Source: Oegoconia quadripuncta (Eukaryota > Arthropoda > Insecta > Lepidoptera > Autostichidae). Taken from it: DNA of 64,000 nt. The stretch spans positions 5,752,424-5,816,423 of the forward strand of contig OX438747.1 of NCBI GenBank assembly GCA_949316235.1, in the 5' to 3' direction. Of this stretch, positions 25,081-64,000 are shown one piece after another. Below the pieces are notes generated by a model that did no database searches, was not told the DNA's origin, and worked only from the letters and a program-made list of their open reading frames with translations. Both the position numbers and the translations under genes were made by a program. Within the stretch, counting starts at the first letter, position 1. Each line of letters starts with the position of its first letter.

Positions 25081-25360
25081 AATAAATAAATAAATATAAA
25101 TATCCTTAGACATACACACAGCGCCATCTAGTTCCACAATAAGCAACTATATGCTTGTGTTGTGGATACCAGATGGTTGATATAATACATAAATACATTT
25201 TTTTTTTGTAAATAAATACTTATTATAAATGAAAACATCCATAACTCGGGTAAACATGTCCGTATTCATCACACAAACATATGCCCCTAGCGGGATTCGA
25301 ACCCGCAACCTTTTGGTATAGTGGCCAGAGTTGCTAACCATTACACCAAACAGGTCGTCA
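25081..25360 (-). mobile_element. SINE-B, full length
   Basis: Best SINE-B copy. On the minus strand the A box is TGGTGTAATGG and the B box GGTTCGAATCCCG, the body carries CCGAGTTATGGATGTTTTCA and GGAACTAGATGGCGCTGTG, and the tail is (TTTA)n. Confidence 0.8.
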
Positions 25361-51300: not shown

Positions 51301-51500
51301 NNNNNNNNNNNNNNNNNNNNNNNNNNNNNNNNNNNNNNNNNNNNNNNNNNNNNNNNNNNNNNNNNNNNNNNNNNNNNNNNNNNNNNNNNNNNNNNNNNNN
51401 NNNNNNNNNNNNNNNNNNNNNNNNNNNNNNNNNNNNNNNNNNNNNNNNNNNNNNNNNNNNNNNNNNNNNNNNNNNNNNNNNNNNNNNNNNNNNNNNNNNN
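51301..51500. other. Assembly gap (200 N)
   Basis: A round number of N marks a scaffold gap. It directly abuts the tandem array, so the array has probably been collapsed or truncated here. Confidence 0.95.
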
Positions 51501-52010
51501 CAAGTGTATAAAAAAATCGATTTCGTGATTTTGTGACCAATGCTCGGGTAGGCCGCATGTGTAGACAGGGATAGTGAAAATCGAAGTTGGTTAAATTACA
51601 ATAACTTTTTAGTTTTTCAACCGATCGGGTACCCATTTTCAGGAACAGTAGATGGGGTCTGGACGTACCGAAATTTAAAATTTCATCGAAATCAAATGAG
51701 ATTTGACTGAGGTATTTAATTTTTTTTTTAAGTCAATATCGACGGTAAATCGGTTACAACTATGTTGAACGTCGCCGGATCGCGTTACAATTGACGACAT
51801 CCATATTTTTGATCATTCGTCACGAGTTTTTAAAATTTCCACAAGATCGGACAACTTTTGAGAAAGTTGCCTTTTTAGGGAAGAGTCGGAGGGGGGGCAT
51901 CTTCGGAGTTGACGATTTGGATAGAGCTTTCCGAGACGAAGTCAGAACTGAAAGAATTTTCTTTCAGCGATGCACCAAAGCCCAGGCATATTTATTTAAA
52001 ATTTTTCAAA

Positions 52011-52220
52011 ATGGCGGCCGTGAACGATTTCGAACGCCGATTGGGCCCCAACCGCAAGTCGGAACGACACCGTGTTTCGGCTCGTCGTTCATGGAATTTG
52101 GCCAGCTGTCCACTCCGCTGTATGATTCCCTTCTCTCGGTACTTCTGGATTTCAATCGAAAAATTAAAACGCCCGTATCTCGGACATTTTAAGGGCTACA
52201 GCAAAATTTCTTTTCGCTGA
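52011..52220 (+). other. 69-codon frame inside each tandem unit
   Basis: The ATG in CAAAATGGCGG has an excellent start context. The frame is rich in Arg/Ser/Phe (MAAVNDFERRLGPNRKSE...) and ends at TGA. It recurs at +1049, +2098, +3147 and +4196. In the last unit the frame reads on past the usual stop, because TGA is changed to TTA. Two overlapping frames are just as long, so this alone does not show that it is a gene. Confidence 0.15.
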
Positions 52221-52466
52221 TCGTTGTGTGCAATCACACCTTTCACCCAGCATATTGAGTGTGATCGTGCCGTAGGCACAGTCTGCGCACCGAAGGTCGA
52301 AGCCGAGTTTTTAGGTTCGAGTTCAAGTTTTGTTAGTCTATTCTTTATACCTTTATGAGCTCTTTACAAGCGTGTATTTGAAAATAATATGCCATCGGTG
52401 ATTTGTCATCTCAATCTTTAGAGGGGGCGGGGAGGGGAAAAAAAAAATACATTGGTGTGGCATGAT

Positions 52467-52493
52467 TTGTCGACTTCCATAGGAAGTCGACAA
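52467..52493. repeat. Perfect 12-bp palindrome in tandem unit 1
   Basis: TTGTCGACTTCC / GGAAGTCGACAA with a 3-base centre. In units 2-4 the right arm reads GGAAGTCGAAAA, which shortens the stem, and unit 3 has CAC in place of ATA's neighbourhood. Unit 5 ends before it. Confidence 0.8.
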
Positions 52494-55400
52494 TCCAAAA
52501 ATGGTGTTAATTTTCTTCTATCTCTAACCGTTTTCGAGATAATGACAAACAAGTGTATAAAAAAATCGATTTCGTGATTTTGTGACCAATGCTCGGGTAG
52601 GCCGCATGTGTAGACAGGGATAGTGAAAATCGAAGTTGGTTAAATTACAATAACTTTTTTGTTTTTCAACCGATCGGGTACCCATTTTCAGGAACAGTAG
52701 ATGGGGTCTGGACGTACCGAAATTTAAAATTTCATCGAAATCAAATGAGATTTGACTGAGGTATTTCATTTTTTTTGTAAGTCAATATCGACGGTAAATC
52801 TGTCATAACTATGTTGTACGTCGCCGGATCGCGTTACAATTGACGACATCCATATTTTTGATCATTCGTCACGAGTTTTTAAAATTTCCACAAGATCGGA
52901 CAACTTTTGAGAAAGTTGCCTTTTTAGGGAAGAGTCGGAGGGGGGGCATCTTCGGAGTTGACGATTTGGATAGAGCTTTCCGAGACGAAGTCAGAACTGA
53001 AAGAATTTTCTTTCAGCGATGCACCAAAGCCCAGGCATATTTATTTAAAATTTTTCAAAATGGCGGCCGTGAACGATTTCGAACGCCGATTGGGCCCCAA
53101 CCGCAAGTCGGAACGACACCGTGTTTCGGCTCGTCGTTCATGGAATTTGGCCAGCTGTCCACTCCGCTGTATGATTCCCTTCTCTCGGTACTTCTGGATT
53201 TCAATCGAAAAATTAAAACGCCCGTATCTCGGACATTTTAAGGGCTACAGCAAAATTTCTTTTCGCTGATCGTTGTGTGCAATCACACCTTTCACCCAGC
53301 ATATTGAGTGTGATCGTGCCGTAGGCACAGTCTGCGCACCGAAGGTCGAAGCCGAGTTTTTAGGTTCGAGTTCAAGTTTTGTTAGTCTATTCTTTATACC
53401 TTTATGAGCTCTTTACAAGCGTGTATTTGAAAATAATATGCCATCGGTGATTTGTCATCTCAATCTTTAGAGGGGGCGGGGAGGGGAAAAAAAAAATACA
53501 TTGGTGTGGCATGATTTGTCGACTTCCATAGGAAGTCGAAAATCCAAAAATGGTGTTAATTTTCTTCTATCTCTAACCGTTTTCGAGATAATGACAAACA
53601 AGTGTATAAAAAAATCGATTTCGTGATTTTGTGACCAATGCTCGGGTAGGCCGCATGTGTAGACAGGGATAGTGAAAATCGAAGTTGGTTAAATTACAAT
53701 AACTTTTTTGTTTTTCAACCGATCGGGTACCCATTTTCAGGAACAGTAGATGGGGTCTGGACGTACCGAAATTTAAAATTTCATCGAAATCAAATGAGAT
53801 TTGACTGAGGTATTTCATTTTTTTTGTAAGTCAATATCGACGGTAAATCTGTCATAACTATGTTGTACGTCGCCGGATCGCGTTACAATTGACGACATCC
53901 ATATTTTTGATCATTCGTCACGAGTTTTTAAAATTTCCACAAGATCGGACAACTTTTGAGAAAGTTGCCTTTTTAGGGAAGAGTCGGAGGGGGGGCATCT
54001 TCGGAGTTGACGATTTGGATAGAGCTTTCCGAGACGAAGTCAGAACTGAAAGAATTTTCTTTCAGCGATGCACCAAAGCCCAGGCATATTTATTTAAAAT
54101 TTTTCAAAATGGCGGCCGTGAACGATTTCGAACGCCGATTGGGCCCCAACCGCAAGTCGGAACGACACCGTGTTTCGGCTCGTCGTTCATGGAATTTGGC
54201 CAGCTGTCCACTCCGCTGTATGATTCCCTTCTCTCGGTACTTCTGGATTTCAATCGAAAAATTAAAACGCCCGTATCTCGGACATTTTAAGGGCTACAGC
54301 AAAATTTCTTTTCGCTGATCGTTGTGTGCAATCACACCTTTCACCCAGCATATTGAGTGTGATCGTGCCGTAGGCACAGTCTGCGCACCGAAGGTCGAAG
54401 CCGAGTTTTTAGGTTCGAGTTCAAGTTTTGTTAGTCTATTCTTTATACCTTTATGAGCTCTTTACAAGCGTGTATTTGAAAATAATATGCCATCGGTGAT
54501 TTGTCATCTCAATCTTTAGAGGGGGCGGGGAGGGGAAAAAAAAAATACATTGGTGTGGCATGATTTGTCGACTTCCACAGGAAGTCGAAAATCCAAAAAT
54601 GGTGTTAATTTTCTTCTATCTCTAACCGTTTTCGAGATAATGACAAACAAGTGTATAAAAAAATCGATTTCGTGATTTTGTGACCAATGCTCGGGTAGGC
54701 CGCATGTGTAGACAGGGATAGTGAAAATCGAAGTTGGTTAAATTACAATAACTTTTTTGTTTTTCAACCGATCGGGTACCCATTTTCAGGAACAGTAGAT
54801 GGGGTCTGGACGTACCGAAATTTAAAATTTCATCGAAATCAAATGAGATTTGACTGAGGTATTTCATTTTTTTTGTAAGTCAATATCGACGGTAAATCTG
54901 TCATAACTATGTTGTACGTCGCCGGATCGCGTTACAATTGACGACATCCATATTTTTGATCATTCGTCACGAGTTTTTAAAATTTCCACAAGATCGGACA
55001 ACTTTTGAGAAAGTTGCCTTTTTAGGGAAGAGTCGGAGGGGGGGCATCTTCGGAGTTGACGATTTGGATAGAGCTTTCCGAGACGAAGTCAGAACTGAAA
55101 GAATTTTCTTTCAGCGATGCACCAAAGCCCAGGCATATTTATTTAAAATTTTTCAAAATGGCGGCCGTGAACGATTTCGAACGCCGATTGGGCCCCAACC
55201 GCAAGTCGGAACGACACCGTGTTTCGGCTCGTCGTTCATGGAATTTGGCCAGCTGTCCACTCCGCTGTATGATTCCCTTCTCTCGGTACTTCTGGATTTC
55301 AATCGAAAAATTAAAACGCCCGTATCTCGGACATTTTAAGGGCTACAGCAAAATTTCTTTTCGCTGATCGTTGTGTGCAATCACACCTTTCACCCAGCAT

Positions 55401-56522
55401 ATTGAGTGTGATCGTGCCGTAGGCACAGTCTGCGCACCGAAGGTCGAAGCCGAGTTTTTAGGTTCGAGTTCAAGTTTTGTTAGTCTATTCTTTATACCTT
55501 TATGAGCTCTTTACAAGCGTGTATTTGAAAATAATATGCCATCGGTGATTTGTCATCTCAATCTTTAGAGGGGGCGGGGAGGGGAAAAAAAAAATACATT
55601 GGTGTGGCATGATTTGTCGACTTCCATAGGAAGTCGAAAATCCAAAAATGGTGTTAATTTTCTTCTATCTCTAACCGTTTTCGAGATAATGACAAACAAG
55701 TGTATAAAAAAATCGATTTCGTGATTTTGTGACCAATGCTCGGGTAGGCCGCATGTGTAGACAGGGATAGTGAAAATCGAAGTTGGTTAAATTACAATAA
55801 CTTTTTTGTTTTTCAACCGATCGGGTACCCATTTTCAGGAACAGTAGATGGGGTCTGGACGTACCGAAATTTAAAATTTCATCGAAATCAAATGAGATTT
55901 GACTGAGGTATTTCATTTTTTTTGTAAGTCAATATCGACGGTAAATCTGTCATAACTATGTTGTACGTCGCCGGATCGCGTTACAATTGACGACATCCAT
56001 ATTTTTGATCATTCGTCACGAGTTTTTAAAATTTCCACAAGATCGGACAACTTTTGAGAAAGTTGCCTTTTTAGGGAAGAGTCGGAGGGGGGGCATCTTC
56101 GGAGTTGACGATTTGGATAGAGCTTTCCGAGACGAAGTCAGAACTGAAAGAATTTTCTTTCAGCGATGCACCAAAGCCCAGGCATATTTATTTAAAATTT
56201 TTCAAAATGGCGGCCGTGAACGATTTCGAACGCCGATTGGGCCCCAACCGCAAGTCGGAACGACACCGTGTTTCGGCTCGTCGTTCATGGAATTTGGCCA
56301 GCTGTCCACTCCGCTGTATGATTCCCTTCTCTCGGTACTTCTGGATTTCACTCGAAAAATTAAAACGCCCGTATCTCGGACATTTTAAGGGCTACAGCAA
56401 AATTTCTTTTCGCTTATCGTTGTGTGCAATCACACCTTTCACCCAGCATATTGAGTGTGATCGTGCCGTAGGCACAGTCTGCGCACCGAAGGTCGAAGCC
56501 GAGTTTTTAGGTTTGAGTTCAA

Positions 56523-56884
56523 AAAGAGGAGAAGTTAGATATGAAAATAACAAAATCCAGTCATTGAGTCAGTTAGGTACTATTACAGTAAACTAGCTCG
56601 ATCCATGAGCCATATGATATCAATATCAAGTCTCTGCATAAATTTGGGGTTTGTGTATATGCGTCGAGACGCGTCGAATTTATTAGAACTTGGCCTGACT
56701 CACTGCCGTGTCTGTCCACATTTCGTCGGTCTAGGTATCATGCGTATTCAGGTTATTGAAAAGATCTAGGTACTGTTATCAAACATACCCGTCTAAAATT
56801 AAGTACTTAATCTGGGTATAACTTTGTGTTAAAATTATACCTACCTATTCATTTTATGACAAGCTTTTCATTTCAAATTTCAAG
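56523..56884. other. Anonymous DNA right of the array
   Basis: Unique-looking sequence; nothing was recognised. Confidence 0.3.
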
Positions 56885-57002
56885 ACAATCGGTAAAAGCT
56901 TTAATAAAAGAAATTGCGGCGCAATTGCCTAGTCTAACGGACTACAGACAGGTGGGTTCGGCTAACGATTTTGGTGATAATACACGTTGTCGATGCATTC
57001 AG
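56885..57002 (+). CDS. Candidate coding exon upstream of the SAM gene
   Basis: After an acceptor-like TTTCAAATTTCAAG an open frame reads ...QSVKALIKEIAAQLPSLTDY, followed by RQVGSANDFGDNTRCRCIQ. Two phase-0 donors are possible: CAG|GTGGGT (56952) and CAG|GTAAAT (57003). The frame otherwise closes at 57041. It has amphipathic, protein-like composition. I do not recognise the family, and no partner exon was found. It could be the last exon of another gene, an alternative 5' exon, or chance. Confidence 0.3.
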
Positions 57003-57595
57003 GTAAATATTCGGCTACATGATCCGTATGCGGTTAAATGAAAGAAAGAGGCCGACGATCGCTATTGGTACGAAAAGTATGCTACCTACATACCGTACGT
57101 ATGCGGTTACAGTATACGTAGCCGGTTGAAAACGATGAGATGCGATTGGTCGGACGGAACAAGTGACGCCGTGTAGTGTTGCCACCTTAGCATACTGGCG
57201 AAATCTTGAGGGAATTCATTAGAGTAACATAGGTAATGATTTTTATCGTTCATAATGTGAGCAGTGGCTGTCAATTTCTACATATTAAGTACGTATCAAC
57301 CCTTCTTTTCATATTTATTTATTAGACAGGCCTTTCTAGAATCGAGGCCATTGAAAAATTTATAACTAGGCGTTTTTAGGGGAATTTTGAAAATATATTG
57401 GGGGAAAACTTGTCGTGGGTTGGCAACACCATCGGGCATCCTTTTACGTCGTAGACAGAGAATTTAACATGGAGTGAATTTTTTTAGTGAGCGGTTATTG
57501 CGCTAATTAGTAATAAAAATAATACTATAATACCGCACGCACCCAATGCTAACACTTTGATTGTTTGTTTCGTTTCACTGTATTGTATTTGTTTG
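57003..57595. promoter_or_regulatory. Upstream region of the SAM gene
   Basis: Between the candidate exon and the predicted start. It contains CpG-bearing stretches (TACGTAGCCGG, GACGCCGTG) and two AAATATATTGGGGG-like runs, but no clear TATA box. Confidence 0.3.
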
Positions 57596-57642
57596 TCAGT
57601 CAAAGGTGTTTTGCTGTCCCAGTGATCTTTTTTTCTTGAATG
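57596..57642 (+). promoter_or_regulatory. Initiator TCAGT and noncoding first exon of the SAM gene
   Basis: TCAGT at 57596-57600 matches the arthropod initiator. About 45 bp downstream, GAATG|GTAAGT (intron from 57643) is a strong donor. The first exon would be 57598-57642, spliced either to the acceptor CTGCAG (57736) or read without splicing. If the ATG at 57640-57642 is used with that acceptor, translation starts MPVFMMDE in frame with the main CDS. Confidence 0.45.
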
Positions 57643-57745
57643 GTAAGTACCTACTTATGTGTGAATTTTTTACGCCCCCATAGCGTCACTCTGACCGAAT
57701 ATTGTTCTATAACCAGGTAAGGCTCCAGGGCTGCAGCCAGTATTT

Positions 57746-57812
57746 ATGATGGACGAAATTTATAATTTCCTCAAAGAAATTGGCTGTTCAGATATCATTC
57801 AGATTTTCAAAG
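57746..57812 (+). CDS. SAM gene coding exon 1
   Basis: Two adjacent ATGs (57746 and 57749) start MMDEIYNFLKEIG. The second has the better context (A at -3, G at +4). The exon ends AAAG|GTACGT in phase 1, inside the SAM domain. Confidence 0.7.
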
Positions 57813-60800
57813 GTACGTAAATAGGTATTAGGGACTTTGGAAATTAGTTAGCGAAACTATAACTTCCTTTTCATGTTATTTACCAGGCAGTAGGCCTCTT
57901 GCCTGGAGGACGGCTGGATGAGTATCACACTATTTCTGACGCCATGCATTAATGCAAAAATTTTTGTGTTCCGTTGTGAAGGTAAGTGAGCCAGCGAAAT
58001 ATCAGGCAATGAGGCATAAGTTTGAGATCTCGGGGTGACAATGCATCTGTAACCACTAACCACTGTATTTGAAGTTGATTGCATTGACATTATCTCTGGC
58101 ACATTGCAGGTGTCATGGGCAGCCGTCATTACTTACCATAAGGTGAGCGGCTTGCTCATTCGTCATACCTTATAATAAAAAATTATCAAACTTGTTTTCA
58201 AAGTCCCTATTTACATCCCTTACCTTTTTATATAATTTCGCAATGTATTAGGTAGAACTACTAATTATTCATACATCTGTAGCATACAGCCCAATAAATT
58301 CACTGTTAGACATAGCCTCTCCCAAGGCGCGATTTGCATCACTTATCATGGGAGGATTTGCCCTAATTGCTACAGCGGCAGGCCGGTCGGTGAGAGAGAT
58401 CTAATTAATAGTTCTAAATTGTTCACTTGGTGGGTAGTAAGCTCGATCAATTAATTTATATTTTACAGATAATTTAAACTTTGTGTCAGACAGTACCTAA
58501 ATTATTTTTATATTTTCAGAGCAGGAAATTGATTTTGAAACTGTTTTTCTTCTGCAAGAAAACGAGCTCGTACAGCTGTTTCCAAAAATAGGCCCACGGA
58601 TAAAGTTCAAAAAGTTTATAGATGAGCAAAAGATAATAAGAAATATTCCTGGTCTTTCTGTAACAGTAAGTACCTACCTTATGAAATTCCACTGACAATA
58701 ATATAATTTATTAATCTATACATAATACTATAGTACCTACTTGTGAAACCCTGGTTACATGCCTATTATGTGATATTGATCTCAAAATGTGATAAAACAA
58801 GTGATCGATCATGTTAAAAAATAAAAAATGTTTATCATAATATTGCAAGTAGATTAGAAATTGATGTTGGTCCATATTTTACTCTGATAATTTTTACTTT
58901 TTTCAGTATGTTGATTATACTCTATCTGGGTCAAAATCGGTATCGGAAGAATCTGGATCGACTACAAATGCTGAAAATGCAGTTGTTTCAAGAAAGCAAA
59001 CATTAGAAATAGTAGATATACCTGACTCACAACAGAAAAACAATGCCGTAAGTTAATTTAATAACTATTTCTTTTTCCTCAATTAGAGTACCTAAATATT
59101 ACAATCTAGCCTATACATATTATACTGACTAATAAGTAATTTAAATTAGCTTAAAGTTCTAAATGGAAAATATATCTAAGAAATGAGTCCACTGACATTC
59201 ATTTATTACTTAACACAAGTTGTGTCCATTGGCGTAGCTAGAGATTTTTCCTAGGATGGGCCATGGCCCCAGCCATAAATCGGCCTCTGTCATCTGTCAG
59301 CGCATGCGCAACTTTGTAGGTATCAAGTATGGATTTCAGTTATCTTATCCTATGGGATATCTAGCTAGGTCTAGCTATATTATCGACTTAATTTACATAG
59401 TTTTGGTCAGGACACAGATAAGATAAAAAAGAATAGTATAATAGAATATAATAAATAAATAATCCATACTTGAGTACCTAAAGTCTATTTCTTTCATTTC
59501 TGCCCAAAATGTAAATGAAATGAAATGAAATGAAACTTTATTTGCAGGATCATGGGTACAATAACGGTCTTAAATTAAAATGTTTCCATCACAATCTGCC
59601 AGTTGTGGCGTGCAAATGTCAATAAAAATTTTAAATGTAGTGCAATACAATAAACAATTTTCAATTAATTATGTTACAAATAAAATTTACAATGTCAATA
59701 AGTATACAATTTCCAATTAATTAAGGTCAAAATATAGCGTTAAAATGTCAAAATACAATCACAACTAGCACACGTTTTCTAATTGTAAATAATTTTAAAA
59801 TGTCAAAAACAAGAGAGAACATTATCAATACCTTGCTATTTAAATACACTAATAAAATAAAAATACAATTTATTACCTTACTATATCTCTGTTTTGTCAT
59901 TCAGAAATTCTTGTATTGAATAATAGCATTTATCCAAAAAGTATCCAAAAATTAATTTCTTAAACGTCCTAGTATTTCTATTCTTGAAGTCATCAGGTAG
60001 ATTATTGTAAATTCTGATAAACAAACCATAGGTACCATTACCTTACATTCAGCAAAATATTGTTAACCTTTCACTGTCTGCTGACCAAATATGATGTTTA
60101 ATGAACAATATTAACACTGCTTCACTATACAGGGTGTAAAAAAAGCACGAATGAAATTTTGGAAAATGATTAAGTATCATTCATAGATTACAGGAAAAAT
60201 ATAAAAAGGTTTTTGAAAATTTTACTAAAATAAAAAATTACAAGCAACAAATGAACATGTGTTAGATATGTTATACTATGAAACTTAGTACAGAAGTAAA
60301 GTTAAAAATACTTATAGTAATGTTTTTATTTCATTTCTCTAGAGAAATAAATGTAATAATTTTAAATGAAAATAAAAACATGATTAAGTATTTTTTATCC
60401 AATTTTCTTTATTTACTTTCATAATAAACACGTGTTCCACTTTGTTTGTAATTATTTTTCATTTTTTATTTACTAAAATTTTCCAAAAAACACCCCTACC
60501 CCTACCACTACCCGATCCTAAAAAGCACACAAGTATTATCCGCTTTTCTAATGATTGCGTTTCTTATTGTTACAGGTTTTCAAAATTTTAAATGTAATTT
60601 TTTTATTTTTTTAGTATCTTTTAGACTTTCGTTATCGCGGGTGCAAGAACAATTGAAAGTAATCTTTCAAGGAAGAGCATAATTACATGGTTCACTTCTT
60701 GCCTTTTTTAAATTTTGATGAAGCTAACTAAAAATACAATACATGTACTCGTAAATAACAAATCATTCAATGATTGACGCTTTTATGTTTACCTACACTA

Positions 60801-63548
60801 GTTTTTCCAGCGCTTCCGCTTGCACTGTGTTGGGATAAAGGTATAGGTTATTCAGTTATCCCTTGTAATCATTTCCACCACAAATTATTATTTGCATATG
60901 TAACACCATTTATTGACCACCTCCATGGTGTTGGCTTAGGACTGCGGTTGCCACAAAAAGGTTCAATTTCTGGTCGGGTCAATCTAGAAAACTTACTTTT
61001 CAAAATTTTCTCGGATCTGGGTGTTCTGAGTAATCCCCCCAGAAGTCGTTACCTGGATCTCATAGCACACTAGGTATGAGGCCAGGTTGGTGTTCCGGAT
61101 TATTTATATTCTTTGGCCCAACGTTTTTGCACCCGCAATGACTGGTATAGAGTTAGAAGCTTTGTAGGTTGGGGACGTAGATTATAGAGTAGGACGCGCT
61201 AGCCCTCCTACGTACGGTAGCTTAAAACTGAGTCCAGGTGACCCGTTTTACGCGCGATTAGAAGGGTTACCTATCACGAATGCGAATTTTATTTTTTCGA
61301 ATTTTAATTGTTCGAAAACGTTTCCCATAATATTGTTTTCGAGCAAGCAAGTTTCGAAAGTATGATAGGTTACCGATTATAGTCCGTTCAACATAGGATG
61401 GTGATTTTGACAGTTCACTTTAGTGATTGACACATCAATTTATCACACATTACTAGTATGTAGCTAGTATGTTATTAGTTCCTGTATTATTAGTAAGATA
61501 CTATTAAATACGAATCTAATAATCATGAAATGAGTAAGTAATAAGTAAATGTGTACTTTTTCATTACACAAAGCATGTACAACTTAATAAACACGTAGAC
61601 TAAATGAGGAAATAGGTCTTCTTCCAGAAGAATCCCATAAAACTCAACTCAAAGGTTGCTCTTTTACGTCAATAATAGATGTATACATTTGAAATAAATC
61701 AGAAGACTCTTGAGAGATCAATAACTTTCGAAATTAAATTATATTGATTTTCATGCGATTGTTATTCGGCGGTAGCGAATAAATCGATAATCGAATACGC
61801 AGTTGTAGTACAAAGTTGTAGAATTGTCGATTCATTAATGATTTTTAAGTAACAAGTGCTTTATTTGCTGTTTTCAAAAGAATTTATACTTTACGCCATT
61901 CTTCTTATTACTTTACTTGAGAAACATGTTACTGGCGTTACAACACTAGTTTAAAAAAAAACCCTAGAACGTAACCGCAAGAATGACGTTTCGTCAACAC
62001 AAAATTTCGCGTTTAAATCAAAATTATAATCCAGATCATGTTGTATTTTAAGTATTAAATCAAAATAATTACATTGTTCATCTTCAATGACTAAGGGCGG
62101 CTTGCACCAAATTACGTTTAAATATAACCTAAATAAATTTAACTAAATACGTTTAACTTGTTAAAAGTGTTTAACATAATTGCGTTTAGTGACTTCTTGC
62201 ACCAAGCTGTTTTGAAGATCGTTTAACTTAACGCGTTCATTGTGTCGATAACAGTTGCCTTACGTTTCGTTACACGTAAGTACCGCTATTGACGCCATTT
62301 TTGAACAAAATATTTCTTTTACACGACCTAAGTATGCGTAAATAGGAATCAGTTCTGTAAATTTTTGACACAATGTGACATACTTACAATTTAGAATAGC
62401 TTGTGATCTTTAACACTCTTATATCAAAATTAATATGGATCAAAATGCTTCCCGTCTAGTTACCTCTAAAGTAAACGTCAAACTTACGTTGCAAGATGGC
62501 GCTAAACGTATTTAGCTCTGCTAAATAGCGTTTAATGGGTATTTAAATTTGACAGTTCCACAGGTTTAGCAACCTATTTAGCGTGGTGCAAGGCGTTGCA
62601 TTGACTTAAACGTAAATTTAAATTTAAATTGTATTTAAGTATTATTTAGTGACATGGTGCAAGCCACCCTAAATAAATGTAAGGACTATTGTTTTGAAAT
62701 TTTGGCATTTAAGCATTTACATTCTATTGCCAGTCCCATCTGTCAAAATCGCCAAGCTATAACGAACGGACTATAGAAGGCAACGGAGTTATACGTTATT
62801 GCAAGATGAGAATAAAATATTTTCCACTTTAACGTGTGACTGTATTGTCCTCAAATTACGTGTTCAGCGGGACATTTGGACTTGAGATCACCTCAATGAG
62901 CGAGTTCATAGCTGTGACCTCTATTACTACCACTATGTGAAGTTTACCTCGCACATTTTAAATCGAAGGGCGAGACAACGAGAAACTCGCTTGCAGGGGT
63001 GATTTCCAAGCATAAAAATGTAGGTACAAAGCTTCTGTAGTATAGTATTTAGACATAGATGGTATGAATTTATTATTACTAACTAGTTTTGTTATTTTTA
63101 GGCAAGTTTAGATGGACGCGCTATTTTGCGTGAAGGTCGAATCGGTGGAGGTTTATTAAAAGAGGGCTCAAGGAGGAAATTAAGTCAGTTAATAATACAT
63201 AACGAACTTGAACAAGATCCTGCTAAAAGCATAAGTACTCAAGAATTCTACCGCTTGGCTACAGATGTATGCGAGGTGTTTACAAAAGAAAATGTATTAG
63301 TTTACTTCTCGGCATACGTAGCCGCTACATCAACGGGTACCGCTAAAAAAAACGCGAGTGGGAAACTGTATGAATCGTATATTAACAGACGTAGAAAGCT
63401 GCGAGAAAGCGGTTGTTTACCGAGACGAAGCCGCTCCTCATCAATTTCGACAGTTTCTTCAACTGCAACTTTGTCTTCTTTGGTGTCGGAAGACGCTGCG
63501 GAAGACGTTGCTCAAAACGAAGGTAGATGTTCTTTTTATCCTTCTTAG
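57746..63548 (+). CDS. SAM-domain protein gene (four exons in window)
   Basis: Coding exons are 57746-57812, 58520-58665, 58907-59047 and 63102-63522 (or to the stop at 63548). All introns are GT-AG and the phases agree (1, 0, 0). Residues 4-60 or so form a sterile alpha motif: FLKEIGCSDIIQIF, then EQEIDFETVFLLQENELVQL, then GPRIKFKKFI. SAM domains mediate protein-protein or RNA contacts. A Ser/Thr-rich linker follows (exon 3). A second region comes next (exon 4: GRIGGGLLKEGSRRKLSQLI, STQEFYRLATDVCEVF, ASGKLYESYINRRRKLRESG), with the pattern of a domain seen in uncharacterised insect proteins, often after SAM. A Ser-rich stretch ends the window part. If exon 4 runs to the stop the protein has 266 residues. 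Such proteins are usually longer, so I favour splicing at 63523 to exons outside the window. The function is unknown. Confidence 0.75.
57857..58185 (+). mobile_element. LINE-type 3' repeat in SAM intron 1
   Basis: GCAGGTGTCATGGGCAGCCG, then CTTACCATAAGGTGAGCGG, CTTGCTCATTCGTC and an A-rich end form a very common moth retroelement 3' end (usual form CAGGTG...TTACCATCAGGTGA). The 90-codon minus ORF over it is a shadow. Confidence 0.6.
58186..58519. other. Rest of SAM intron 1
   Basis: Near 58310, ACATAGCCTCTCCCAAGGCG resembles RTE-type moth repeats. Nothing else was seen. Confidence 0.35.
58520..58665 (+). CDS. SAM gene coding exon 2
   Basis: The acceptor is TATATTTTCAG and the donor ACA|GTAAGT. 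It encodes the second half of the SAM domain (helices 3-5), ending IIRNIPGLSVT. Length 146, restoring phase 0. Confidence 0.8.
58907..59047 (+). CDS. SAM gene coding exon 3
   Basis: The acceptor is TTTTTTCAG and the donor GCC|GTAAGT. 47 whole codons encode a polar linker, YVDYTLSGSKSVSEESGS to DSQQKNNA. No domain; likely disordered. Confidence 0.75.
59215..59400. repeat. Repeat-like scrap in SAM intron 3
   Basis: TTGGCGTAGCTAGAGATTTT followed by CATGGCCCCAGCC resembles the GGCGTAGCTAGG words found at transposon ends in many animals. The boundaries were not found. Confidence 0.3.
59513..60055 (-). mobile_element. LINE 3' end with RT-ORF C-terminus and (TTTCA)n tail
   Basis: On the minus strand a frame from about 60027 to the stop at 59881-59883 reads YGLFIRIYNNLPDDF and later YFLDKCYYSIQEFLND. 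This is the typical C-terminal end of jockey/CR1-type reverse transcriptase ORFs (YN-LP...FK..L....YS..EF). A 3' UTR, AATAAA and TTTCATTTCATTTCATTTCA follow. It is inserted in SAM intron 3, antisense to the gene. Confidence 0.7.
60211..60489. mobile_element. MITE-5, palindromic AT-rich element in SAM intron 3
   Basis: The left arm TTTTGAAAATTTTACTAAAA...AACATGTG is repeated inverted at the right (CACGTGTTCCACTTTGTTTG...TTTACTAAAATTTTCCAAAA), with arms of about 55 bp and gaps. The centre holds TTTCTCTAGAGAAATAAA, itself palindromic. There is no ORF. Confidence 0.6.
60490..62091. other. Remainder of SAM intron 3, left part
   Basis: A 99-codon plus ORF at 60774-61073 has no recognised domain. 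The CGACTTCTGGGGGGATTACT word on its minus strand looks repeat-derived. No exon with matching phase was found. Confidence 0.35.
62095..62669. mobile_element. MITE-6 with TAA target duplication in SAM intron 3
   Basis: TAA at 62092-62094 and 62670-62672 flank the element. The tips GGGCGGCTTGCACCA (left) and the complement of GGGTGGCTTGCACCA (right) are inverted. Sub-terminal words (GTTTAA / TTAAAC, TTGCACCAA) recur in both orientations. The 3-bp TWA target fits PIF/Harbinger-type MITEs (inference). The 575-bp body has no ORF. Confidence 0.75.
62673..63101. other. Remainder of SAM intron 3, right part
   Basis: Nothing was recognised before the exon 4 acceptor. Confidence 0.35.
63102..63548 (+). 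CDS. SAM gene coding exon 4
   Basis: The acceptor is TTATTTTTAG. The frame is open for 148 codons to TAG at 63546-63548. A donor, GAAG|GTAGAT, at 63522/63523 would end it in phase 1, eight codons before the stop. The last codons (GRCSFYPS) look like read-through into intron rather than protein. Confidence 0.75.
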   Translation, partial: ASLDGRAILREGRIGGGLLKEGSRRKLSQLIIHNELEQDPAKSISTQEFYRLATDVCEVFTKENVLVYFSAYVAATSTGTAKKNASGKLYESYINRRRKLRESGCLPRRSRSSSISTVSSTATLSSLVSEDAAEDVAQNEGRCSFYPS

Positions 63549-63720
63549 AAGATAGGAAATAATAATTAGTATTGCTATACTTAAGTCGTTATTTCCTATT
63601 TTCTACAATTACATAACATTATATTTTTCTAATGTATATGTTTCGGCTAAGCTAGACCTAGATGTATCCTACTTACCTTCGGTTAGAACTAGGCTTAGCC
63701 TTCGTCACACCGGCTAGAAC
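63549..63720. other. Sequence after exon 4
   Basis: 3' UTR or intron. No AATAAA was seen close to the stop, which mildly favours the spliced model. Confidence 0.35.
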
Positions 63721-63842
63721 TACCACACCACACCACACCACACCACACTGCACTACACTACACTACACCACACTACACTATACTATATTATACTATACTT
63801 TACATACTACACTATACTATAATGTACTATGCTATACTATCC
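63721..63842. repeat. Pentanucleotide microsatellite (CACAC/CTACA/CTATA)
   Basis: It starts as perfect ACCAC repeats and decays stepwise into CTACA, then CTATA units, all on a 5-bp period. Confidence 0.85.
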
Positions 63843-63955
63843 TAATAGGTACTCGCACTGGGCCAGCGTGGCGGACTATGGCCTATACTCCCTTATTATG
63901 TATGAGGGAAGATTTATATCCTTGCAGTGGGATATTTATGGACTGATGATGATGA
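63840..63955 (+). mobile_element. LINE-derived moth repeat, 3' end
   Basis: GCACTGGGCCAGCGTGGCGG, ACTATGGCCTATACTCCC and the final TATGGACTGATGATGATGAT match the family at 49490-49690. It includes a hairpin at the same position (TCCCTTAT / ATGAGGGA). Confidence 0.6.
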
Positions 63956-64000
63956 TATCTAATTTGAACCACCGGTGAGCGGCTACACCTAGTTCTAACC

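Follow-up and report, generated by a model that had tools for sequence, protein, structure and literature searches.

A tandem array of 1049-bp units, located at positions 51501-56522 of a 64,000-nucleotide stretch of Oegoconia quadripuncta DNA (assembly GCA_949316235.1, contig OX438747.1, positions 5,752,424 to 5,816,423; hereafter the window), belongs, with high confidence, to the interior of a giant DNA transposon (28-31 kb) of the CACTA/EnSpm type, which moved very recently. An earlier note, made from the letters of the window, had described this array as a macrosatellite and as an element in itself, a reading which is abandoned here. That note had also stated that its proposal would fall if the unit turned out to be the internal repeat of a known transposon: the unit is indeed the internal repeat of a transposon, though of one for which no description was found. 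Copies of the element are designated below by contig and position in megabases (Mb), C6 being the contig of the window.

The array consists of four full head-to-tail units followed by 826 bases (4.79 units), and not of the five units previously counted. The exact 1049-bp period given by the earlier note is well supported, the array matching itself at 99.7 % at an offset of 1049 versus 25-33 % at offsets of 1040-1048 and 1050-1059. All units are read on the forward strand and were delimited by self-comparison. Unit 1 (51501..52549), of the left-edge type, shows 8 differences from unit 2 (52550..53598), 7 of them within unit positions 111-268. Unit 4 (54648..55696) is identical to unit 2, and unit 3 (53599..54647) is one base off both, so that the middle units are nearly identical (0-1 differences), as had been noticed from the sequence. 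The partial last unit (55697..56522) contains 3 differences. On its left side, the array abuts a run of 200 N (51301..51500), presumably an assembly gap, which covers the left arm of the element in the window copy; the left end of the array is therefore absent from the window. The array was missed by Tandem Repeats Finder because the longest period considered was 500. Elsewhere in the window, the search for further copies of the unit returned just one 21-base match (E 0.11).

One unit was searched against the genome to which the window belongs (622.6 Mb, 45 contigs), 27 of the 38 candidates being scored. The search gave 161 matches, of which all but the last few were listed; among the listed ones, at least 27 array places, counted by hand, were recognized on 12 contigs. 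In 22 of these 27 listed arrays, the right side stops at the same base (query position 876), which is the stop position of the partial last unit of the window, and all 17 listed left-edge rows start at query position 889. The other five listed arrays correspond to a truncated copy of the same element on C20 and to four arrays lying in a second CACTA-like element. A common right end at 22 places is accounted for by the location of the array inside a mobile element, whereas free satellites are not expected to end alike at 22 loci. Ordinary satellite DNA made of long monomers, established at numerous loci and kept homogeneous by unequal exchange (a free macrosatellite), would agree with the homogeneity of the middle units and with the long monomers known in moths, which measure 1.4-2.2 kb in Crambidae (PMC8042265). 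However, beyond the common right end and the assignment of the five remaining arrays, the copies share, to the left and to the right of the array, arms which each exceed 6 kb, together with inverted ends and target duplications, and this alternative is very unlikely.

The element is bounded by 23-bp identical terminal inverted repeats (CACTGAGAG) beginning with CACTG, and its left and right ends both open with CACTGAGAGAAAAAAGCTACGTA in inverted orientation. CACTGAGAGAAAAAAGCTACGTA is present in 21 of the 22 right ends which were fetched, the last one running into N. Genome-wide, 23 right-end matches were obtained (21 over all 240 bases, one over 234 and one over 46), along with 21 left ends matching over 299-300 bases at 100 % (rounded), two of which score slightly lower. 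By position, 20 elements combine a left end, the array and a right-end match, the right end being complete in 18 of them and shortened in two, and three copies, namely that of the window, C4:26.7 Mb and C11:7.53 Mb, possess the array and the right end but have no left end among those listed. For a further left end, at C3:13424218, the listed matches include no array and no right end, and it could represent a truncated copy or a broken assembly. In near-identical copies, the left arm extends over ~6.4 kb to the common left end and the right arm over ~18.5 kb to the common right end. The end-to-end lengths, worked out by hand, are 30,228 bases for C12:16.6 Mb, 28,123 for C5, 29,185 for C12:12.1 Mb, 30,247 for C13:10.1 Mb, 27,837 for C4:35.9 Mb, 30,266 for C13:22.2 Mb and 30,610 for C1:33.2 Mb.

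Host flanks differ between copies of the element, and equal flanking dinucleotides were observed in six of the seven copies for which both flanks were read: TA for C12:16.6, C13:10.1, C1:33.2 and C12:12.1 Mb, and CA for C4:35.9 and C13:22.2 Mb. CACTA/EnSpm elements are expected to generate target-site duplications of 2-3 bp. A duplication of 2 bp is documented for a CACTA element (PMC4298943). Both the 23-bp CACTG ends and the 2-bp duplications are thus those of a CACTA/EnSpm (CMC) element.

Two further tandem arrays, both outside the window, are carried by the element: a 74-bp array in the left arm (37.8 copies in the C12:16.6 Mb copy) and an 85-bp array at the right end (23.2 copies in the C5 copy). 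The description of the surroundings as otherwise non-tandem DNA is hence accurate for the window and inaccurate for the element. The consensus units of both arrays contain the motif TACGTA. In the C5 copy, this motif reaches a density of 6.35 per kb over the final 4.4 kb and of 4.92 per kb over the left arm, versus 0.45 per kb in positions 1-51300 and 0.8 per kb in positions 56523-64000 of the window. The element thereby displays the repeated subterminal motifs of CACTA/EnSpm elements. In plant CACTA elements, subterminal repeats are transposase binding sites and, by analogy, the TACGTA-rich subterminal arrays would be putative binding sites of the transposase. A large imperfect palindrome is formed at the right end by the last 240 bases of the element (L033:4170-4409), which align to their reverse complement over ~200 bases with 74 % identity.

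The right arm of the element contains an 821-codon open frame (L030:4451-6913). The encoded protein has at least 427 relatives at E ≤ 0.001 (among 7,989 candidates scored) and, among the best 120 of these 427, the species-named ones are from insects, the closest there being from the moth Scirpophaga incertulas (62 %), in keeping with a lepidopteran host. Thirty-two relatives hand-picked from these best 120 were aligned with the query, giving 33 members, one of them already annotated PF02992; Transposase_21 (tnp2, PF02992) is matched by 10 of the 33 at E ≤ 0.1, with a best value of 1.1e-6. A tnp2/Transposase_21 affiliation is thus suggested through the relatives only and, as the query itself has no Pfam family match, the assignment to CACTA is based on its relatives, on the ends of the element and on the predicted fold. 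The predicted structure of the protein has a mean pLDDT of 86.5. Among the closest solved folds, RAG1 occupies the first 43 ranks (best E 2.2e-10; TM-score of 0.36 when normalized by query length), followed by BbRAGL and HzTransib. CMC transposases are kin to Transib/RAG, and a predicted RAG1/Transib-like fold is the outcome expected for a CMC-like DDE transposase. Four acidic residues, D302, D396, D478 and E644, are among the invariant columns of the 33 aligned sequences and are candidate residues of the RNase-H-like DDE catalytic core indicated by the model.

These features also bear on another type of mobile element, the Helitrons or Helentrons with central tandem repeats. The oyster representatives carry satellite-like central arrays (PMC7492417), in line with the organization reported here. 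They are at odds with the CACTG inverted ends, the DDE-type predicted fold and the Transposase_21 matches among relatives of the encoded protein, as well as with the 2-bp duplications, since insertion of a Helitron leaves no target duplication (PMC9659126). A Helitron or Helentron origin can consequently be given almost no weight.

In favor of a recently moving CACTA/EnSpm transposon, the full stop-free 821-aa frame is present in at least 10 genomic copies, including the window copy, and is partial in three more (55 of the 223 candidates of this genome search were scored, and 40 of 59 in another transposase search). Eight of the ten full frames, the query being one of them, have the same score as the query. 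A transposase frame could be placed, by position, in 13 of the 23 elements. Other CACTA-like families of the same genome are represented by multi-copy stop-free frames of 844 codons (7 copies) and of 860, 868, 884 and 817 codons (~4-5 copies each). As judged from such frames, the CACTA superfamily seems to be broadly active in this genome.

Several observations weigh against this assignment. The C5 copy is flanked by unlike dinucleotides (TA/TG). The 821-aa protein is below every Pfam cut-off, with a weak zinc finger only (E 0.19), and its fold matches are remote, with TM-scores by query length of 0.24-0.42 and identities of 9-13 % for RAG1, BbRAGL and HzTransib. Part of the element reads N in several fetched copies, which limits the reading of its gene content, and the case for its movement is built on sequence data. 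The left end of the window copy is not in the assembly, none of the 21 listed left ends being at this place. Finally, no transposase match is listed for 10 of the 23 elements. All ten have 98 %-type units, as does the C20 copy, which has a partial frame; these ten elements are probably non-autonomous derivatives.

In the window, the right arm of the CACTA element occupies positions 56523..64000 (forward strand) and continues beyond, as supported by its identity to the C5 copy, the right-end match and the transposase. The comparison with the C5 copy extends to position 63865 and shows 100 % identity over positions 56353-63865. In the window copy, the transposase frame is intact (C6:5819557-5822019) and starts 3.1 kb past the window; the right inverted repeat of this copy is located at C6:5827515, 11,092 bases past the window end. 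A 148-codon open frame inside the element (63102..63548, forward strand) has no family match near the curated cut-off. The last 13 bases of the left contig (51288..51300, forward strand) are the same as the first 13 host bases on the right of the element, a 13-mer present a single time in the window and in none of 100 shuffles. From this identity, it appears that the left contig passes through the unoccupied target site and that the right contig begins inside the element, the duplicated dinucleotide being probably CA. A left contig ending on an unoccupied target site in turn suggests that the insertion is heterozygous: the element would be present on one chromosome only, the assembly having probably switched haplotype, from the empty to the filled site, at the gap.

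The contact between the array and the 200-N gap raises the question of an assembly artefact, in which one unit would have been multiplied at the gap. The right-arm sequence present twice around a 200-N run near C6:8.2 Mb (L021), perhaps a haplotype duplication of the assembly caused by the element, goes in the same direction. Nevertheless, arrays of two, three or four full units with both boundaries listed exist on C5, C12 and C13, and the edge variants described below are common to several copies, making such an artefact highly improbable. With its occurrence on 12 contigs and its differing unit numbers, the array is therefore not explained by an assembly duplication, the other outcome by which the earlier note would have been refuted.

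The comparison of copies informs on the behavior of the array inside the transposon. Five copies (C12:16.6, C5, C4:35.9, C13:10.1 and C12:12.1 Mb) have 0-3 differences over 2,600 left-arm bases when compared to the C12:16.6 Mb copy, and 0-1 difference over 3,000 right-arm bases when compared to the window copy. Despite these near-identical arms, their arrays contain, by hand count, two (C5 and C4:35.9 Mb), three (C12:12.1 Mb) or four (C12:16.6 and C13:10.1 Mb) full units, which indicates that the array moves whole and then changes length quickly. The C1:33.2, C6:8.2, C2:29.8 Mb and C20 copies are more divergent: identity is 97.3-99.6 % for the left arm and 97.8-99.5 % for the right arm, of whose 3,000 compared bases 2,985, 2,522, 1,060 and 2,646, respectively, are aligned. 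Five full units were found in C1:33.2 and C6:22.4 Mb, seven in C6:24.9 and C2:29.8 Mb, and one full unit with partial ones in C17 and in the left-truncated C11:7.53 Mb copy.

The edge variants were read in the arrays of six elements, some of them in part. The unit carrying the seven variants is found at the left array edge in the window, C12:16.6, C13:22.2 and C13:10.1 Mb copies, and C5 and C4:35.9 Mb also hold it, as judged by score. In the C12:12.1 Mb copy, a unit of the middle type stands at the left edge and, of the seven variants, just the one at position 111 is retained, in the third unit. The edge unit thus keeps history until exchange removes it. Homogenisation between neighboring units, which the earlier note had surmised, is supported both by the near-identity of the middle units and by the loss of the edge-type unit in the C12:12.1 Mb copy.

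Based on these data, the following mechanism can be proposed. The transposase would bind the element ends and the TACGTA-rich subterminal arrays, excise the element and insert it elsewhere. The array would be carried whole as cargo, which would explain the same array ends everywhere. In each copy, the number of units would then shift by unequal crossing-over, gene conversion or slipped gap repair after excision, all three being compatible with the changes in length. Such exchange would keep the middle units alike, and the edge unit could retain older variants.

Four arrays differ from all the others in having a 1047-base period, ~96 % identity and other ends (C7, C6:17.3, C4:14.8 and C2:9.6 Mb). 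In all four, another CACTA-like end, CACTGAGAAAAAATTGC, is situated at a distance of ~2.7 kb, with differing host flanks. When the long flanks of one of the four, the C7 copy, were compared to the first element, the array sequence was the sole match among the best 25 rows for the loci compared. The right end and the transposase of this second element were not found among these sequences, and its CACTA membership accordingly rests on the CACTGAGAAAAAATTGC end and on the CTACGTA-rich flanking repeats. By these ends and repeats, the 1.05-kb array is lodged in two apparently CACTA-like elements. In the C7 copy, the unit phrase TTTCTTCTATCTCTAACCGTTTTCGAGATA (window 52511-52541) recurs just beyond the right array edge (L025), possibly a trace of array cutting or joining.

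Regarding the origin of the array, it can be proposed with moderate confidence that a single event of formation or capture in one CACTA family was followed by transfer to the second through recombination between the two elements, so that the array would be a shared module, which is compatible with its present location in the giant transposon. The 1047-base arrays in four out of four CACTGAGAAAAAATTGC elements with differing host flanks, and the C7 flanks matching in the array sequence alone, argue for such a transfer. On the other side stand the alternative of common descent of both families from an array-bearing ancestor, the right end and the transposase not found for the second family, and the comparison of long flanks, which covers a single one of the four copies of that family. 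A further and rather speculative idea is that the array is an exchangeable functional module rather than passive cargo, passed between two CACTA families and changing in copy number at or near each transposition; such a module could serve as a spacer, a boundary or a small-RNA decoy aiding escape from silencing, and could seed macrosatellites of the host.

In the literature consulted for comparison, the closest known case is Jozin, a CACTA-like element from Chenopodium quinoa, which measures 16,523 bp and contains a 5,550-bp array of 171-bp monomers (32.5 copies) (PMC8978399). Like Jozin, the present element belongs to the CACTA superfamily, is related to Transposase_21 and owes much of its length to an internal satellite array. 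In contrast to this plant element, whose 171-bp monomers are near its 3' end, it has 1049-bp units and a size of 28-31 kb, resides in an insect-like genome and carries two further tandem arrays, its unit also occurring in two CACTA-like elements. Satellite monomers derived from a tnp2 fragment have been reported as well (PMC7320549). As with Cg_HINE from the Pacific oyster, dispersed satellite-like arrays correspond here to the central repeats of mobile elements; the oyster elements are, however, non-autonomous Helentrons (PMC7492417), whereas the present one is a CACTA element with inverted ends and an intact transposase. Enlarged En/Spm elements, of 16-20 kb, are also known from Chondrus crispus (cited in PMC6431247) and resemble the present one in their unusual size. 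They have 4-5 open frames, while the element described here shows, where readable, long noncoding stretches and tandem arrays. Lepidopteran tandem units longer than 1 kb have been described in Crambidae, namely Cper-Sat01 (2,244 bp), Dpos-Sat01 (1,391 bp) and Dpos-Sat02 (1,380 bp). In the passages on them, these arrays are described as satellites without transposon context (PMC8042265), in contrast to the element-borne array reported here.

In the literature searched, no report of a 1049-bp satellite tandem repeat was found. Likewise, the literature on CACTA/EnSpm elements with tandem repeats, satellites, insects or Lepidoptera, as far as it was covered, contained no report of this element, and the literature searched, also partially covered, none of an animal CACTA element with ~1-kb tandem units. 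The family thus appears to be an undescribed and very young family of giant CACTA transposons with an internal long-unit array.

This transposon illustrates the generation and spread of satellite-like DNA by a jumping gene. With an intact transposase and a long-unit array, it apparently represents an intermediate and datable stage of satellite origin, and its near-identical copies with 2, 2, 3, 4 and 4 full units would make it possible to measure how fast and in which way the array grows with each transposition. A further suggestion is that long-monomer "satellites" of moths may in some cases be internal parts of giant CACTA elements, and that assemblies can be broken by elements of this kind.

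Other possible natures of the unit were considered. The longest frame in a doubled unit has 147 codons, a length reached or surpassed in 32 of 500 dinucleotide shuffles and in one of 116 other window stretches. No Pfam match to this frame was obtained up to E 1, and none of 31 candidate proteins matched it at E ≤ 10. On the shuffle comparison and the lack of Pfam and protein matches, the unit was rejected as a coding sequence. The array has no Rfam match at gathering score, neither to rDNA, in agreement with the earlier note, nor to any other known RNA gene. Folding of 991 of the 1049 bases of the unit gave z-scores of -1.47 and -1.78, each versus 20 shuffles; together with the absence of an Rfam match, these values led to the rejection of a structured RNA. 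No match to the unit was found in phages and plasmids, nor in viral contigs for two exact patterns, and a phage, plasmid or viral origin was rejected on these absent matches.

No tRNA gene was detected anywhere in the window by ARAGORN. Several dispersed repeat families, direct and inverted, of ~80-300 bp and 60-100 % alike, are distributed over positions 1995-46284. These repeats, one family of which has a tRNA-like segment at 25282-25325, are possibly SINE-like elements.

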